Positions 14,865-25,837 of a stretch of 25,859 nt of DNA are shown piece by piece. The notes beneath the pieces are model-generated. The model saw only the letters and a program-made list of their open reading frames with translations, was not told the DNA's origin and made no database searches. The translations under genes were made by a program, and so were the position numbers. The DNA comes from a virus. Position 1 is the stretch's first letter, and each line of letters opens with the position of its first letter. The stretch spans positions 1 through 25,859 of the IMG/VR virus record IMGVR_UViG_3300020438_000240. The stretch is one strand, 5' to 3'.

Positions 14865-17231
14865 TTACGATGAGTAAATCTGTCTTCTACCTTGTTCATC
14901 TAGTGCTCCTACTGTTTTATTTCCTATTTCTCTTCGTGTATTATTTGCTTTTTTAGTTTCTTCTAAAAGTTCTTTTAGTAATTTATTATCTGCACCTACT
15001 GAAATTGCACCTTCAGGTCCTGAATATACATCATTACCTCTGAATAAATTTGTTCCTGCTATTACAGTATCATTATTATTTAAGGCAAAAGCCCCTTTAG
15101 GTGTTATTAATGTTCTTTTTCCATGAGTAGAAATACCATCATCCATTGAAGTTGCAGCAGCATAACCAACTGCCCCATAAGGTCCTAAAAGAGCTAATGC
15201 GCCACCATCCATCATATTTTGACCCGCAGCGCCAAATCCTTTTCCTACTCCTTCCAAATAATTATCACCTATACTTGAAAAATCTAAAAGAGGACCTAAA
15301 ATATTTCCTACAGCTCTTAAAAGTAACATTAGGGGTTGCATCATTTTAGATACAACACCTAATATGGGAGCTAAAATATCCATAACAGGAGATAAAATTT
15401 GAAGTATAGGTTCTGCTAGTTGAACAAATATTTCTCGAAGTTTATCCATCGTTTTATTAAATCTATCTTGTATACTAGCTTGACTTTTTAAATCTTCAAT
15501 ACTTCCTTTTGCTAATTGTCTTTGAGCTTCAGCTAACCCTTTTTCCTGGATTAAACTATCTAAAACTGCTTTTCTTTCTTCAGCTTCATCTCCAGTTACA
15601 TTTCTTAATTGTTCTTGAACAAATAAAGTTTCAGCTAATGAGTCTCTACTCATTCCTACCGATTCAGCTAATGCCTTTTGTTGAATAACATTCATTTTAC
15701 CAAAATCAGCAGCACTTCCTATTTGTGATGAAATTTCTTTTGCTACTTCTGCTACATTATTATTTAAAGCTGCTAATCTAGCTCTTTCTAAATTAATGTT
15801 TTTACCTAATAATAATTCTGCTTTTAATTCACTTGCAATAGATTGTTCAAAATTTAATAAAGATTCTGATGAGGATGCTATTTGCTCCATTGTCATACCT
15901 AAAGCCTTAGCTGTTGTTACAGTCTTTGATAATATTGCTGGGTTTTTTCCTAATGATAATGTTGTAGCTGCTGAGAGTTTATTAATATCTCTAAGAACTT
16001 CTTTTTCATTAATTGTAACTCCTAAATTAGCTGAAGATATTTTAGCTTGGGCTAAAACTTCCCCAGTTACTTGATTTAATTCTTTATTAGTGCCTTGGGT
16101 TATTTTAAATATCCCTGTTAACTCTTCATTAGTTAACCCTGATGCTTCTCTTAATTCTGTAAATTGGACTAAAACATCTTCACTTATTTTAGCGTTAGTA
16201 CCTAATGTCTTATTTATAGCCATATAGGTTTCTTGGAGACCTTTTGTGTTTACAAAAATAGAACCAGAATCAGCTGCCATTTTTCCAAATTCTCCTCTTA
16301 ACCTAACAGCATCAGTGTAAGTCATATTCATAGACTTAGCTAAATCTCCTGCTGCTTTATCTCCTTGAATTAACGCTTGTACTAATTCTACAAGTAATCC
16401 TATAGGACCTAAAGCTTTTGAAAGAATAGGACCTAAAGCTTTAAATCCGGATTTTAAAGCAAGCATTCCTTTTTTAGAGGATTTCATTCCCCTTAATTTT
16501 GTTCTTGCTGCTTTCCCTTCTAAACCATTTAATTCTTTTTGTAAACCTAATTCTTTGATTTTATTTTTAGTAAGCTTTCTACCATCCATATTCATGGCTT
16601 GTTCTATACCCGAAGCCATAGAACGAGAAGAATCTGCTGCTTCTTTAAAAGGGCCTGAAAGTTTACTTAAACCTGGAATTTTGCTAGTTAAATCAGAGAG
16701 TCCTTCAAATGTTTTTGATCCAAAATTTTTATTAACTTTTTTAGAAGACTCTTCAACTTTACCTAATTCTTTCTTTAAATTTATTGCTTCTTTAACTTGC
16801 TCCTTTAATGAAATTGTAATGTCTGAAAAGATCTGTTTTTCTTCTTGGCTGGCTGTTTTAGATTCTTGTGCAAATTTTTTCTTTTGTTGATTTAATAACC
16901 TAATATTGTTTTCAATAGATACTCTATCTTTTTGTAATTGTTGAATCCCCTTAAGAGTACCTAATTCATCTTTACCTATTTTATAATTTTTAGAAGCAAT
17001 ACTATTTAAATTATTAACAGTACTATTAATTAACTTTCTTTCTTCTTTTTGAAATTGGATATTTTTTAATTGGTCTTTTAAAACATTAGAAATATCCTGT
17101 TGGTCAGAAAGAGATTCACCGCTAATACCTGCTTGGTCTTGCAGAATTCTAATTTGTTCAGATAAAAGAAGGTTTTGGTCTTTTAATAACTTCTTTATAT
17201 CTTCTTGATTTTGTTTGTTTTGATTGGCCAT
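14865..17231 (-). CDS. Tail tape measure protein
   Basis: A 788-aa protein that would span the tail tube and set its length. Residues 1-165 are strongly coiled-coil (LLKDQNLLLSEQIRILQDQ and later heptads). There is a hydrophobic helical patch near 265-290 (GPILSKALGPIGLLVELVQA) and a longer one near 605-648 (PVMDILAPILGVVSKMMQ, LMLLLRAVGNILGPLLDF), as is usual for tape measures that insert in the host membrane. The C-terminus is Gly-rich and has LITPKGAFALNNNDTVIAGT, a common tape-measure end. It is longer than T4 gp29 (590 aa); at about 0.15 nm per residue the tail would be near 118 nm, a rough inference. It directly follows the gp26-like frameshift pair, the classic chaperone-then-tape order. 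Confidence 0.92.
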   Translation of the reverse strand: MANQNKQNQEDIKKLLKDQNLLLSEQIRILQDQAGISGESLSDQQDISNVLKDQLKNIQFQKEERKLINSTVNNLNSIASKNYKIGKDELGTLKGIQQLQKDRVSIENNIRLLNQQKKKFAQESKTASQEEKQIFSDITISLKEQVKEAINLKKELGKVEESSKKVNKNFGSKTFEGLSDLTSKIPGLSKLSGPFKEAADSSRSMASGIEQAMNMDGRKLTKNKIKELGLQKELNGLEGKAARTKLRGMKSSKKGMLALKSGFKALGPILSKALGPIGLLVELVQALIQGDKAAGDLAKSMNMTYTDAVRLRGEFGKMAADSGSIFVNTKGLQETYMAINKTLGTNAKISEDVLVQFTELREASGLTNEELTGIFKITQGTNKELNQVTGEVLAQAKISSANLGVTINEKEVLRDINKLSAATTLSLGKNPAILSKTVTTAKALGMTMEQIASSSESLLNFEQSIASELKAELLLGKNINLERARLAALNNNVAEVAKEISSQIGSAADFGKMNVIQQKALAESVGMSRDSLAETLFVQEQLRNVTGDEAEERKAVLDSLIQEKGLAEAQRQLAKGSIEDLKSQASIQDRFNKTMDKLREIFVQLAEPILQILSPVMDILAPILGVVSKMMQPLMLLLRAVGNILGPLLDFSSIGDNYLEGVGKGFGAAGQNMMDGGALALLGPYGAVGYAAATSMDDGISTHGKRTLITPKGAFALNNNDTVIAGTNLFRGNDVYSGPEGAISVGADNKLLKELLEETKKANNTRREIGNKTVGALDEQGRRQIYSS

Positions 17232-17267: not shown

Positions 17268-17579
17268 TTATTTATATGAGGTTCTAGGTTTTGAACCTTG
17301 TGAAAATTGTGGGAAATTTTGGGGATTTACCTTCCCTGTGGAATCTATTAAAGTAGAGGAATTATTCCCCGATTTAGATTCTTCATATTCTTTCTTTTCA
17401 TCCTCATAAAAATCTTTTATTTCTTTAAAGGTGAATTTTCTTAACCAAATAGGCATGTTATAAATGGTTTCATAATCGTAACCACCTTTACCATGAAATA
17501 AAATTTGATGGATTTGTTGGAATAAACTTAATCTAACTTGGGGTGCTATATCAAACGTCAGGCCAAAAAAATGTAATCC
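17268..17579 (-). CDS. Second ORF of the tail-assembly gene, probably reached by +1 (or -2) ribosomal frameshift
   Basis: This frame is open from 17579 to its stop at 17268. A Met at 17456 would give only 62 aa (starting MPIWLRKFTFKEI), but the coding-like sequence extends upstream without a start: FDIAPQVRLSLFQQIHQ, then ILFHGKGGYDYETIYN, directly before MPIWLRKF. The upstream frame is closed by a TAG at 17580-17582, so entry must occur in 17554-17579, where the 242-aa ORF is still open. The product would be a fusion of about 336 aa. The last about 60 residues are charged, helical, then low-complexity. In dsDNA phages this layout upstream of the tape measure is the tail-assembly chaperone pair (G and G-T of lambda). 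An indel in the T7 run is the main alternative. Confidence 0.75.
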   Translation of the reverse strand, partial: GLHFFGLTFDIAPQVRLSLFQQIHQILFHGKGGYDYETIYNMPIWLRKFTFKEIKDFYEDEKKEYEESKSGNNSSTLIDSTGKVNPQNFPQFSQGSKPRTSYK

Positions 17580-18279
17580 CTATCGGGATTGTGACCTCCT
17601 CTTCACCATCTAAATCATAAGTTAAATCAACGTCTGGTTGGGTGTCTCTAATATGTTCTCTTAATGCTCTAGAATCTATAGCTAATAAATAATTATCTAC
17701 AAATTCTCTTATAGATTTTTTTTCTTCATCACCATTTACTGAGGTGAGAATATATTTTAATCTTGTAGATAATTCAGGGGATGCATTTTTATTAATTTTT
17801 TTAAGACCTCTTAATTCAGCTTCAATTTTTGAATCATCGTGTCCCGTTAGAATTTTATAAGTAACTTGAGTTCCACTATGAGGTAATTTAAATGAAAATT
17901 CATTTAATCCTTTTGTTATAGATGATTCATCAAATTTTTTATTATCTATTTCAGTTAAATCTACAGTTTGTTCTTCACCTTTCCATTCAAATTTATAATC
18001 TTTACCATACCCTAGAATACGTGCTGCTATTAAAACAGCATTTTTATCTCCTAAAATTAGGTCTTTATAATTTATATCTTTGTTTACTATTAAAGAATCA
18101 ATTAATTTATCTAAAACTACTCCTTTTTGGATATAAGCTTGGTTAGTTAAAATATCTTCTTCCTTAGCGGTCATATATTTTATTTCTATTTTTCCATTTG
18201 ATAAAGGGTTATCTTCAGGATAAACTAAACCCTTAGATGGTAATTCAACTTCTTCAGTTGGGAATTTAAATTCACTCAT
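17551..18279 (-). CDS. gp26-like tail assembly / baseplate protein (frameshift donor)
   Basis: A 242-aa protein. Its N-terminus (FKFPTEEVELPSKGLVYP, then MTAKEEDIL) has the form of the T4 gp26-like family found before tape measure genes in marine T4-like phages. In this position the protein is thought to act as the short tail-assembly chaperone that coats the tape measure. The frame ends ITFFWPDV followed by TGA at 17551-17553. A run of seven T on the coding strand (17565-17571) and a GTT-TGA end lie 0-15 nt before the stop, and the +1 frame continues into a credible protein. The short form is expected to be the major product, the fused form the minor one. An imperfect ATATTTATAA-type element (GTATTTATAA) precedes it. 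Family confidence is fair; the chaperone role is inferred from context. Confidence 0.83.
   Translation of the reverse strand: MSEFKFPTEEVELPSKGLVYPEDNPLSNGKIEIKYMTAKEEDILTNQAYIQKGVVLDKLIDSLIVNKDINYKDLILGDKNAVLIAARILGYGKDYKFEWKGEEQTVDLTEIDNKKFDESSITKGLNEFSFKLPHSGTQVTYKILTGHDDSKIEAELRGLKKINKNASPELSTRLKYILTSVNGDEEKKSIREFVDNYLLAIDSRALREHIRDTQPDVDLTYDLDGEEEVTIPIGITFFWPDV
17554..17579 (-). other. Candidate programmed frameshift window
   Basis: On the coding strand this reads GGATTACATTTTTTTGGCCT and then GACGTT, followed by TGA. It is the only stretch where the 242-aa frame and the downstream frame are both open. Two slip sites are possible: the T7 run (TTT-TTT-TGG, +1 or -2) and GTT-TGA, where a slow stop codon could favour +1 slippage from GTT to TTT, as in the RF2 gene. 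No obvious stimulatory hairpin follows. Confidence 0.6.
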
Positions 18280-18378: not shown

Positions 18379-18867
18379 TTAGAAATTCAATACTGCGTAA
18401 TCAATAGATAATTCAACTTGTAAATTAACTGCTGAATCAACTGTATCCCAGTTATATTCACCAAAATTAGTATTAGTTACAAAAGCACCTTTTAAAACCC
18501 ACTCTGAAACAATATCTCCTACAGGTCCTAAAACATCAATAGTTAAATCTTTTTTATAAAAATCAGAATAACCATCTCTACCTGTTACTGATTCATGGTG
18601 TAATCTTACCCATTCCATTACCGCCTGAGCACCTGATGGTGTGATAGGATCAAATAATGTCATGGTTACATTCTGCCATGTTGATTTACCTTTAACTTTT
18701 CTTTCAACGTTTATATGATTAAGGGTTACTATTCCTTGTGCTAATGTTACAGCACTTATAGCCTTAATCATAAAGCTCGGAATCCCATCCATGTAAAGGA
18801 TGAATCTATTCGCTTGTTTGGGTTCAAACGCGGTAAAAAATATTTCATTGGGATCTAATACTGCCAT
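18379..18867 (-). CDS. gp19: Tail tube protein (gp19 family)
   Basis: A 162-aa protein that polymerises into the inner tail tube. The length equals that of T4 gp19 (163 aa). It shows the family shape: an N-terminal segment (FEPKQANRFILYMDGIPSF), the middle VERKVKGKSTWQNVTMTLFD, then VMEWVRLHHESVTGRDGY and a late beta strand pair ending ELSIDYAVLNF. It sits between the sheath gene and the gp26-like gene, the normal order sheath, tube, chaperone, tape measure. It has its own upstream ATATTTATAA element (20 nt before the start) and a strong terminator downstream, which fits a very abundant protein made from its own transcript. Confidence 0.95.
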   Translation of the reverse strand: MAVLDPNEIFFTAFEPKQANRFILYMDGIPSFMIKAISAVTLAQGIVTLNHINVERKVKGKSTWQNVTMTLFDPITPSGAQAVMEWVRLHHESVTGRDGYSDFYKKDLTIDVLGPVGDIVSEWVLKGAFVTNTNFGEYNWDTVDSAVNLQVELSIDYAVLNF

Positions 18868-18912: not shown

Positions 18913-20631
18913 TTATGCCGGGAAAGTAGCTCCAGTTGGTAAAACGTTAAAATCTAAGTAAATAAATTCTGCTGTTTTAGTAGGTTGAATATAAATCTGA
19001 CCTATCAACTCGTTTCTATCAATAACATCTGGGGTGTTGTTACTATCATCCATTACTACTTTAAAGGCATATAAACCTTGTCTTTGTTGTACACTTTCTA
19101 AGTATGGGTTAACTTGGCTTAAGAAGTTATTTCTTGTAGCAATTGTATTTTGTTCAAATACTAAATTATCTGCTATTTGAGAAATATAAGATTTAAGTTC
19201 AATTAATAATCTTCTAACATTTACTCTATCAAGAGCACTTGCTTTTTTCTGCATTGTTTTTTGTCCAAATACTACTACTCCTACATTTGGGAATGTAGCT
19301 ATTGGGTTAACATTTGCTTGATATAAAGTGTTTCTATTTCCGTTTGTTAAGTTTCTTTCTGCTCTAATTACAGTTGATAAACCACCTCTGTTTAAACCTG
19401 CAGGTGCGAACCATGCTTCTCCTGATCTATCATTAAAAGCAAAAACTCCTGGAATCATTGCTGAAGCTGGTACCCAAACTTGAGATCCTAAATCTGGATC
19501 AATTGTTTGTAACCATGGCCAATATGATGCTGCATATGAAGAATCAACACCTGAAGCTTGACTAGTTACTGTTGATAAAGTTGCAGTATCATAATTTACT
19601 AAATCTATAATAGATAAATTATCTCCTCTAGTTTGTGAATTATCTACCATTGTAGTTAATGGAGATGAATGGCTTTCTCTTGTTAAACCTGGGGCAACTA
19701 TTAAATTATATTGGAATAAATCTTGGTTAGCTAATAAATTAAGGGAATCTGTATAGTTTCCTGCTACTAATCCTTGTGTATTTGTTCCTATATCTCCATA
19801 GAAAGTTCCAGCAACACCAGCAAATGCTTCTCCTGTTGCTGCTCCAAATGAACCTGATCCTGCTACTGGGATAGAGCCTGTAAAGTTTGATTTTGCAGTT
19901 CCGGAGTTATCAAAGAAGTTTAATGTTGGTGTAAGTACTGATTTTACTCTTACATAGTTACTTAATGTGTTATAAGTACCTGAATTTTTTATATAATATT
20001 CACCTGTAGATGCATCTGAGGCTACTTCTTGTTTTGAATTACCAATTACTTTTTCAATGTAATTTGAAGCATTAGGATCTAATGATAAGTTTGCCCAAGT
20101 TTCTAATACTGTTTTAGAAGTTGTTATATCATTACCCCTTCTAATTAATAAACTAAATGTACCAGATGATGTATTAGGAGAAACAATTTCCCATCTAACA
20201 TTATCTTTTGAACCTGTAGCTAAAGCACCTGTGTTTGAATCTTCAGAACCAGTGCTATTCATTTCAACACCTTCTGAAATAGTTTCTAATACAAAAGAAG
20301 CAGATGTATTTGCGTTTGCAATTAATGAACTACTAGCAGGAGTGTAAGAACCACTTACTACTCTAGTTACTAATAATGAATCTCCACCTTGTTGGAAATA
20401 ATTGTATGCTGAGATTGATGTAAAATAAGTATATTCTGCACTTCCACTTTCTACTACTGTACCAAATTTGTTTTGATATTCGCTATAAGTGGTAACTAAT
20501 GTTGGAATACCTACAGGGCCTTTTACAGTAGGTCCTAAGATAGCTGCTCCAGCTTGTATAGGTTGGGCTTGTAAAAATGATTGATCATTTTCTCTAGCTA
20601 ATACTCCAGGGGATAATAATACTTCTGCCAT
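18913..20631 (-). CDS. gp18: Tail sheath protein (gp18 family)
   Basis: A 572-aa contractile sheath subunit. The N-terminus LLSPGVLARENDQSF, followed by QAGAAILGPTVKGPVGIPT, is the sheath start seen across Myoviridae; the C-terminus with QIYIQPTKTAEFIYLDFNV is the conserved domain that links neighbouring subunits. The middle, rich in Thr, Ser and Asn, is the variable surface domain. Length is a little under T4 gp18 (659 aa). Its context, directly upstream of the tail tube gene, supports the call. The presence of a sheath shows that the phage has a contractile tail. Confidence 0.96.
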   Translation of the reverse strand: MAEVLLSPGVLARENDQSFLQAQPIQAGAAILGPTVKGPVGIPTLVTTYSEYQNKFGTVVESGSAEYTYFTSISAYNYFQQGGDSLLVTRVVSGSYTPASSSLIANANTSASFVLETISEGVEMNSTGSEDSNTGALATGSKDNVRWEIVSPNTSSGTFSLLIRRGNDITTSKTVLETWANLSLDPNASNYIEKVIGNSKQEVASDASTGEYYIKNSGTYNTLSNYVRVKSVLTPTLNFFDNSGTAKSNFTGSIPVAGSGSFGAATGEAFAGVAGTFYGDIGTNTQGLVAGNYTDSLNLLANQDLFQYNLIVAPGLTRESHSSPLTTMVDNSQTRGDNLSIIDLVNYDTATLSTVTSQASGVDSSYAASYWPWLQTIDPDLGSQVWVPASAMIPGVFAFNDRSGEAWFAPAGLNRGGLSTVIRAERNLTNGNRNTLYQANVNPIATFPNVGVVVFGQKTMQKKASALDRVNVRRLLIELKSYISQIADNLVFEQNTIATRNNFLSQVNPYLESVQQRQGLYAFKVVMDDSNNTPDVIDRNELIGQIYIQPTKTAEFIYLDFNVLPTGATFPA

Positions 20632-24404: not shown

Positions 24405-25178
24405 TTAAGTTAAACCAAATCTACCTTTTAAAGCATTATAATTATGTAAAACTTCAGTTGATGTTAAAGTTTTATCATAAATAGAAAAAGATGAAATGTT
24501 GCAATCTGTATAGTTTGATGTTGAACCCGGCCTAAACATAGATGCAAGACCAAAATTATTTAAACCACCTACGGATATTAGATTATTATTCCACCAATCT
24601 GAAGTAGAAGTATCATCTACTAAAGTTGAATTATAATCTACACCATTAATATAAATTTTTATGTTATATTTATTCCCAGTATTTCCGCCAGATTGTTTAG
24701 TGACGCAAACATTGGTCCATTCTCTTGGTAAAATAGATCCTGTGGTACATAATATTGTTCTATTAGCCCCCGATATACCTGCTAAAACATCAAAACTTCC
24801 TGGGAAAGTTAAACTACTTCCTCCTTCTGGGGAAGTGTAAGCTAATCCCATAACTGGGTAGGAACTTAAGTTAGGTGTAAAAGACCAAATATAACGTCTT
24901 ACTGATGTAACTTCAGGTTTTACCCAAACATTATAAGTAGAATCAGCATAGGAATCCATTAAAGGTTCTAAATTATTTATACTTATAAACTCATCTATCC
25001 CATCAAATTCCCAAACATTATTTAAAAACTTAACATCGTTTTCTAGGCTACCTGTTACTTCTTTATTTATTGAAAGTATGGTGTTTATAGTAGTACTACC
25101 ACTAATGTAAGATTCTTGATTAAAGGAATCTATACAATATATTAATCCATTAGTTACTATGTTAGGTCCAAAATTCAT
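24405..25178 (-). CDS. LamG/concanavalin-like lectin tail protein A
   Basis: A 257-aa protein made of a single LamG-3-type jelly roll: NVWEFDGIDEFISINNLE (about 66-83), then YNVWVKPEVTSVRRYIWSF, a WTNVCVTKQ strand near 160 and IKIYINGVDYNSTL. This fold is common in phage receptor-binding and fibre proteins and binds carbohydrate. The end reads EVLHNYNALKGRFGLT, nearly the same as in the next gene upstream. The start overlaps that gene's stop (TAATG), so the two are translated in series. It is probably part of a host-recognition set. Closest relative in the window: the 219-aa protein. Confidence 0.82.
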   Translation of the reverse strand: MNFGPNIVTNGLIYCIDSFNQESYISGSTTINTILSINKEVTGSLENDVKFLNNVWEFDGIDEFISINNLEPLMDSYADSTYNVWVKPEVTSVRRYIWSFTPNLSSYPVMGLAYTSPEGGSSLTFPGSFDVLAGISGANRTILCTTGSILPREWTNVCVTKQSGGNTGNKYNIKIYINGVDYNSTLVDDTSTSDWWNNNLISVGGLNNFGLASMFRPGSTSNYTDCNISSFSIYDKTLTSTEVLHNYNALKGRFGLT

Positions 25179-25837
25179 TATTCAAATCTTCCTTTTAATG
25201 CGTTGTAGTTGTGTAGAACTTCGTTTGATGATAAGGCACGGTTGTAGGTTTGAATAGGACCTATTTCGCCATCAAAATATTTACTACTTGTACCATTTCC
25301 TATAGTAGAATAAGTAGAATCCGTTACTGAGTTTGTTGTTGTAGATCCAAAAATTATAGCATTTCTATATACAGTTAAATTATTTGAAAAATCTCTTGTA
25401 ATAAAAATATTTTGCCATTCATCAGCTGCGAAATTATTTCCACTACTTTCGTTAAATGTTGTTACTGTACTTTTAAGTTTCACTTTAAATTGTGTTGTTG
25501 ATTTAATTTGTATCCAATTATTGCTAGAAGCTCCGTCACCTAAAAAATTTTGGTCACTTACATCATCTGGATTAACCCATACAGAAAGTGAAAATGCTGA
25601 TGGAAACGTTATGTCTGAAGATAAAAGTATATTATCATCACTACCATCTAGTTCCCATACTCCAAAATTTGAATTAGATAATAAAGGAGTAGTTGAAAGT
25701 GTACCTACATTATTTCCTATAGTATCAGTAGCAGTAGTACCAGTTTTAGGATAACATGCCCTATTAGCAGCATCCATATTGAATACTAGCCCATCCGCTA
25801 TTATATCTGTTGTTATGCTACCTACTCTTCCACTCAT
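25178..25837 (-). CDS. LamG/concanavalin-like lectin tail protein B
   Basis: A 219-aa LamG-3-type jelly roll: VWELDGSDDNILLSSDI, then FSLSVWVNPDDVSDQNFLGD, EWQNIFITRDFSNNLTVYRN and FDGEIGPIQTYNRALSSNEV. It ends LHNYNALKGRFE. It is a paralogue of the 257-aa protein with the same order of elements but different loops, as expected for duplicated adhesins under diversifying selection. It overlaps the stop of a further gene upstream by ATGA (25834-25837). Likely a receptor-binding or fibre-tip component; sugar ligand unknown. Confidence 0.82.
   Translation of the reverse strand: MSGRVGSITTDIIADGLVFNMDAANRACYPKTGTTATDTIGNNVGTLSTTPLLSNSNFGVWELDGSDDNILLSSDITFPSAFSLSVWVNPDDVSDQNFLGDGASSNNWIQIKSTTQFKVKLKSTVTTFNESSGNNFAADEWQNIFITRDFSNNLTVYRNAIIFGSTTTNSVTDSTYSTIGNGTSSKYFDGEIGPIQTYNRALSSNEVLHNYNALKGRFE

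Follow-up and report, generated by a model that had tools for sequence, protein, structure and literature searches.

In this viral fragment from IMG/VR, two tail assembly chaperones are most probably produced from one gene by programmed +1 ribosomal frameshifting; judging from sequence comparison, we put the probability of this reading at about 0.87. The gene lies on the minus strand of the window (i.e. the whole 25,859-nt stretch of DNA that was analysed), where the 0 frame encodes a gp26-like protein ending at a TGA (17553-17551) and the +1 frame, which is also the -2 frame, encodes a C-terminal extension. Frame relation, slip site and coding of the extension are all conserved among relatives, in good agreement with the sequence-only reading that a programmed frameshift fuses the gp26-like protein to the downstream ORF. 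While the chaperone system as such is known, its +1 version with a motif of its own seems to be new.

Two coding frames between the tail tube and tape measure genes

On the minus strand of the window the genes follow each other in the order tail sheath, tail tube, gp26-like protein and tape-measure-like protein (Table 1), and this order confirms the placement of the shift just before the tape measure gene that had been proposed earlier. Two overlapping coding stretches fill the interval from tail tube to tape measure, which is the layout of tail assembly chaperone (TAC) genes. As judged by its sequence, the locus is probably a TAC gene with a short (TAC-N) and a long (TAC-NC) form, the counterpart of lambda G/GT.

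Table 1. Features of the chaperone locus and its neighbours in the window
Feature	Positions	Strand	Basis or remark
Tail sheath protein	18913..20631	-	PF04984; phrog_23 1.5e-70
Tail tube protein (gp19-like), adjoining the gp26-like ORF upstream	18379..18867	-	PF06841 1e-5; phrog_4542 1.9e-19
gp26-like ORF, 0 frame (short form, TAC-N), 242 aa, C-terminus ...ITFFWPDV	17551..18279	-	phrog_150 'baseplate hub' 1.8e-9
Shift site TTTTTTTGGCCTGA (TTT-TTT-TGG-CCT-GA)	17558..17571	-	Invariant or near-invariant over distinct sites; synonymous constraint limited to these codons
+1-frame extension, 98 aa, GLTFDIAPQ...TSYK	17271..17564	-	Conserved protein upstream of Met; codon-position pattern; profile match to cyanophage -1 extension, E 2.2e-6
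First ATG of the +1 frame	17454..17456	-	Not a conserved start
Tape-measure-like protein, 788 aa, adjoining downstream	14865..17231	-	Position and length; gene in the same place in phage immuto annotated as tail tape measure

The minus-strand junction reads ACA, TTT (17571-17569), TTT (17568-17566), TGG (17565-17563), CCT, GAC, GTT and TGA. Upstream, a TAG (17582-17580) limits the +1 frame, which is open as far as a TAA (17270-17268); entry into it maps to TTTTTTTGGCCTGA (17571-17558). The window's ORFs and translations reproduce what had been read off this frame before, namely the closing TAG, the +1-frame peptides and the first Met at 17456. The -1 frame closes immediately at the junction (TTG GCC TGA), and the canonical X XXY YYZ layout of -1 sites is absent. 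TTTTTTTGGCCTGA has a single occurrence in the window, against 0.05 in shuffled sequence when one mismatch is tolerated.

The two-frame layout is widespread, being shared by almost all relatives whose downstream sequence is long enough. Of the first 80 relatives that the window protein retrieved, 77 include downstream DNA, and every one of these has part 2 (the extension) in the +1 frame, 74 with T7GGCCTGA and three with TTT CTT TGG CCT GAC. Further scans together with named phages gave the layout in about 185 non-redundant IMG/VR loci of four clades, a count of loci and not of independent events, as many of the relatives come from related samples. The slip context in these loci is TTT TTT TGG CCT (137), TTT CTT TGG CCT (29), TTC TTT TGG CCT (9), TTT CTA TGG CCT (3), CTT TTT TGG CCT (3) or TTT CTA TTC CCT (1), and in three loci TAC replaces TGG. 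All 10 GTDB contigs, which come from unrelated assemblies (Flavobacteriales, Winogradskyella, Saprospiraceae and others), have the same layout, the site being TTT TTT TGG CCT in nine and TTT TTT TTC CCT in the tenth. Frame relation and site recur in the named phages Flavobacterium immuto, Microcystis Mel-JY01 and Rhodothermus RM378; immuto, a phage of Flavobacterium sp. LMO8, has TTT CTT TGG. Phages of the Streptococcus/Listeria type are also +1, with TTT CGT/CAC/AGT sites: TTT CGT is found in Streptococcus phage GXN1 (L084) and contig L375, and TTT CAC in L374. In influenza A, UUU CGU forms the core of the PA-X +1 site. Scans from the RM378, GXN1 and LIS04 relatives yielded only one or two loci each.

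A few loci depart from this pattern. L215 and one other locus were scored as -1 only because that frame is longer; in L215 the site is kept and the +1 frame is open. L087 is so divergent that its frame relation is hard to judge. In L347 and L351, part 2 has an independent ATG, the shift site is degenerate and the +1 frame is closed. By its sequence, this pair (n = 2) is a natural loss of the frameshift and an informative control.

These two loci, together with the annotation of a separate small ORF in Flavobacterium immuto and in cyanophages, are what speaks for part 2 being a gene in its own right, translated from its own start (Met17456) or by re-initiation. For the remaining loci we reject an own start, which we consider very improbable, on the basis of 139 non-redundant relatives. 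The Met is variable (M 108, F 23, L 7, I 1), so that 31 of 139 lack it, and in six relatives the first 45 codons of part 2 contain neither ATG nor GTG nor TTG. Moreover, protein conservation runs 36 residues upstream of the Met, up to the slip site, with the +1-frame pattern GLT..R..F..IH.I.FHG.GG; substitutions relative to the window in this stretch number 1320, 771 and 2185 at codon positions 1, 2 and 3. A second ORF with its own start and no similarity upstream of its Met, which had been named as a way in which the frameshift could fail, is thus not what the relatives display.

The phages with the +1 site appear to be a large T4-like group, mostly of marine and freshwater Bacteroidota, with hosts putatively assigned from MAG labels and isolates. 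One of the 10 GTDB contigs, a WOR-3 chromosome assembly (L370, CP070664.1), carries a T4-like locus with an intact TTT TTT TGG CCT and 32% identity, either as an integrated phage or as a binning artefact.

Slip site and direction of the shift

We infer from these comparisons that shifting occurs, that it is used by a minority of ribosomes, and what its products do. The majority would read TTT TTT TGG CCT ... TGA and make the 242-aa TAC-N protein. In the minority, with peptidyl-tRNA-Phe at the second UUU (17568-17566) and UGG in the A site, the tRNA would slip forward by one base, skipping U17565, so that reading resumes at GGC (17564-17562) and continues GGC CTG ... to yield a 336-aa TAC-NC form. 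The tRNA would re-pair from UUU to UUU, and in relatives from CUU to UUU or from UUU to UUC; the A-site UGG may be the source of a pause. On the model of lambda G/GT, its N part would coat the tape measure and the C part would recruit tail tube subunits.

Codon usage points to selection on the slip site. Codon identity between same-residue pairs was compared after thinning to below 90% identity, which left 93 sequences. The two slip codons have identities of 1.00 and 0.99 (expected 0.72 and 0.69), the following GGC CTG 1.00 and 0.88 (expected 0.32 and 0.37), and past the dual-coded bases identity drops to near background. Overlapping coding of WPD/E and GL would by itself account for most of the nucleotide conservation of TGGCCTGA, so this conservation is not independent proof. 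Since the conservation of GGC CTG is accounted for by the 0-frame W-P-D/E overlap, the independent signal resides in the two TTT slip codons, and synonymous constraint, as estimated from these alignments, is confined to the slip site.

Of the two directions that the sequence-only reading had left as alternatives, +1 is favoured: +1 re-pairing is permitted at 153 of 153 distinct sites. A -2 shift, in which tRNA-Phe would move back two bases on U7 and add an extra Phe (FFFGLT), is unlikely. Phage Mu does employ it, its tail chaperone gene entering the +1 frame like that of the window but by -2 (PMC5009743), and U7 offers perfect -2 re-pairing at the TTT TTT TGG sites, which make up 111 of the 153. 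However, even under a lenient rule 10 sites (mainly TTC TTT TGG, plus TTC TTT CGT of phage GXN1) do not allow -2 re-pairing, and about 27 further sites (TTT CTT/CTA) would need a Leu tRNA to re-pair on UUC, which is doubtful; the set as a whole does not follow the Mu pattern. Note that the +1 assignment of the window's own T7 site comes from comparison with its relatives, since -2 would fit that site alone, and the same kind of reasoning underlies the direction in any single phage.

The length of the T run bears on two further explanations. It is 7 in 113 of the 153 distinct sites, 3 in 24 and 4 in 8, the others having 6 or a different site form. The 113 runs of seven are where RNA polymerase could drop or add Us and generate a mixed mRNA pool. 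A run of seven is short for transcriptional slippage, and the sites with only three Ts (TTTCTTTGG) or four keep the same frame relation; we reject transcriptional slippage on the strength of these T3/T4 sites and rate it as very unlikely. The variants TTT CTT TGG, TTC TTT TGG and TTT CTA TGG favour a +1 shift over both -2 and transcriptional slippage. Finally, homopolymers are prone to sequencing and assembly error, but the T count agrees exactly between independently assembled sequences and isolate genomes, the shift recurs at sites that lack a long homopolymer, and the run is exactly 7 or else 3, 4, 6 or of another form, so the miscount that had been raised as a way of joining both parts in one frame is excluded for practical purposes.

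Relation to T4 gp26/gp51 and other shifting genes

The N part belongs to the family of T4 gp26 and gp51. Both T4 proteins fall in PF12322 and phrog_150, gp51 having an additional C-terminus; the N part of the window matches phrog_150 (Table 1) and stays below the PF12322 threshold, which the RM378, GXN1 and LIS04 relatives pass at 2e-9 to 4e-25. In cyanophages, Vibrio phage phi-pp2 (KVP40-like), Aeromonas avDM6 and Sinorhizobium phiM9, the gp26 ORF closes with a canonical -1 site, T TTT TTC/G, a single codon ahead of its stop. What is annotated as a separate 'gp51' (L089:2684-2884, L090:2675-2866, L092, L091, L094) is the -1 extension of gp26. These phages have the same two parts and the same shift position (FF closing the N part), but their sites are -1, T TTT TTC (78 distinct sites) or, in phiM9, T TTT TTG, whereas the window group is +1 at TTT TTT TGG. 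In Vibrio phage VAP7 (L093), the gp26 stop overlaps an ATG (TAATG), part 2 is in the -1 frame and GTTTTT replaces T TTT TTC; a start and a shift are both possible there.

A profile of the -1-fused cyanophage protein matches T4 gp51 over its whole length (E 5.8e-20) and the cyanophage extension alone matches the gp51 C-terminus (1.6e-10), which shows end-to-end homology of the cyanophage-type fused form with gp51. The window-type extension in turn matches the cyanophage -1 extension (Table 1; fused profiles 1.1e-7), and by this comparison the +1 site is homologous in position to the cyanophage -1 site. Directly against gp51 the +1 extension reaches E 0.05, the link running via the cyanophage extension. 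By sequence, the extension would be the C-terminal domain of TAC-NC, the counterpart of the gp51 C-terminus and of lambda T. T4 gp26 (L088:7803-9229, with its paralogue gp51) ends at the slip point of its relatives. Given this end point and the profile matches, gp26 corresponds to the short and gp51 to the fused long form, made in T4 from two divergently transcribed paralogous genes without a frameshift and in the window, on the present reading, from one gene with a +1 shift. The one-frame homologue that the earlier reading had asked about thus exists in the form of gp51. Profile searches with the window extension alone gave no match to a known T-domain family; phrog_634 matches weakly in 4 of 40 extension members.

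The N part and the extension were folded separately. The AF2 model of the N part (pLDDT 89) matches viral baseplate hub proteins in Foldseek with E down to 7e-19; its best PDB matches, the HK97 tail assembly chaperone 2ob9 (E 0.37) and YqbN 3klu (E 1.2), are below significance. The extension model is mostly helical (pLDDT 77), and a structure search with it alone found no significant fold match. In the small non-T4 myophage LE4 of Leptospira (L377:21543-22645), a gp26-like protein is followed by a 71-aa ORF before the tape measure gene, and no stop interrupts the -1 frame at the junction. By length and order, A0A343LED6 (the gp26-like fold match) and A0A343LED7 (weakly extension-like) appear to be neighbours in its tube-tape measure interval.

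T4-like tail assembly chaperones were reportedly identified by Vladimirov, Gautam and Davidson in 2022. PMC12846349, citing that study, mentions polyT -1 signals for the TAC-N genes of T4-like phages. On this basis, both the TAC assignment of gp26/gp51 and the -1 sites count as already known. A literature search, which covered the Vladimirov 2022 study by title only, found no published description of a +1 site in this gene family. The relevant passage of Sullivan et al. 2010 (PMC3037559) has cyanophage gp51 as the C-terminal fifth only and does not explain it, and the Atkins review states that G-T frameshifting is widely conserved 'except T4' and that tailed phages use -1, -2 or +1 (PMC5009743). 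Lambda gpG/gpGT likewise places two overlapping frames in the interval from tail tube to tape measure and has a short and a long chaperone, but its shift is -1 (PMC5009743) and its site and proteins bear no evident relation to those of the window. The archaeal myovirus HSTV-2 also enters the +1 frame, very likely by +1 (PMC5009743).

A probable +1 site with no evident stimulators

The closest bacterial parallel is prfB (RF2), CUU UGA C, with which the site shares a P-site pyrimidine-U-U followed by a U that permits +1 slippage; CTT TGG C occurs in 29 distinct loci here. In prfB, a stop codon in the A site is combined with an SD-like AGGGGG three bases upstream, whereas the window site has TGG in the A site and neither element. 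We found no conserved Shine-Dalgarno (SD) sequence at a useful distance and no strong synonymous constraint at SD distance; the one upstream feature, a weak codon bias towards GAG GAG about 33 nt ahead of the site, was judged too distant. Nor was a conserved downstream RNA fold found (mean z -0.54 in the +1 group, +0.37 for the window); the -1 group has a modest downstream fold signal (mean z -1.3).

We consider it likely that the site is a compact, SD-independent and structure-free +1 signal (UUU/CUU, then UGG-CCU) that has been conserved in one orthologous tail-chaperone gene of a wide T4-like phage group, mainly of Bacteroidota, hosts in which ribosomes make little use of SD pairing, and that the direction of shifting has switched within this gene family, because the shift is -1 at this residue in orthologues elsewhere and gene duplication has taken the place of shifting in T-even phages. 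An SD-free +1 site is of interest in F. johnsoniae, where SD pairing is infrequent and the prfB shift inefficient (PMC12421855, PMC8710568). Few bacterial or phage +1 sites are known and the best-studied depend on a stop codon or on SD pairing; a site that appears to lack both, conserved over hundreds of loci, is therefore a good test of what determines forward slippage. The family allows -1, +1 and no shift to be compared within a single gene, and the finding fits the published view of T4 gp26/gp51 as tail assembly chaperones. For a very common phage group it also corrects the annotation, which omits the long chaperone and lists its C-terminal part as a separate gene or not at all. Elsewhere in the window (24405-25837), two adjacent ORFs share a terminal HNYNALKGRF motif and look like tandem paralogues.
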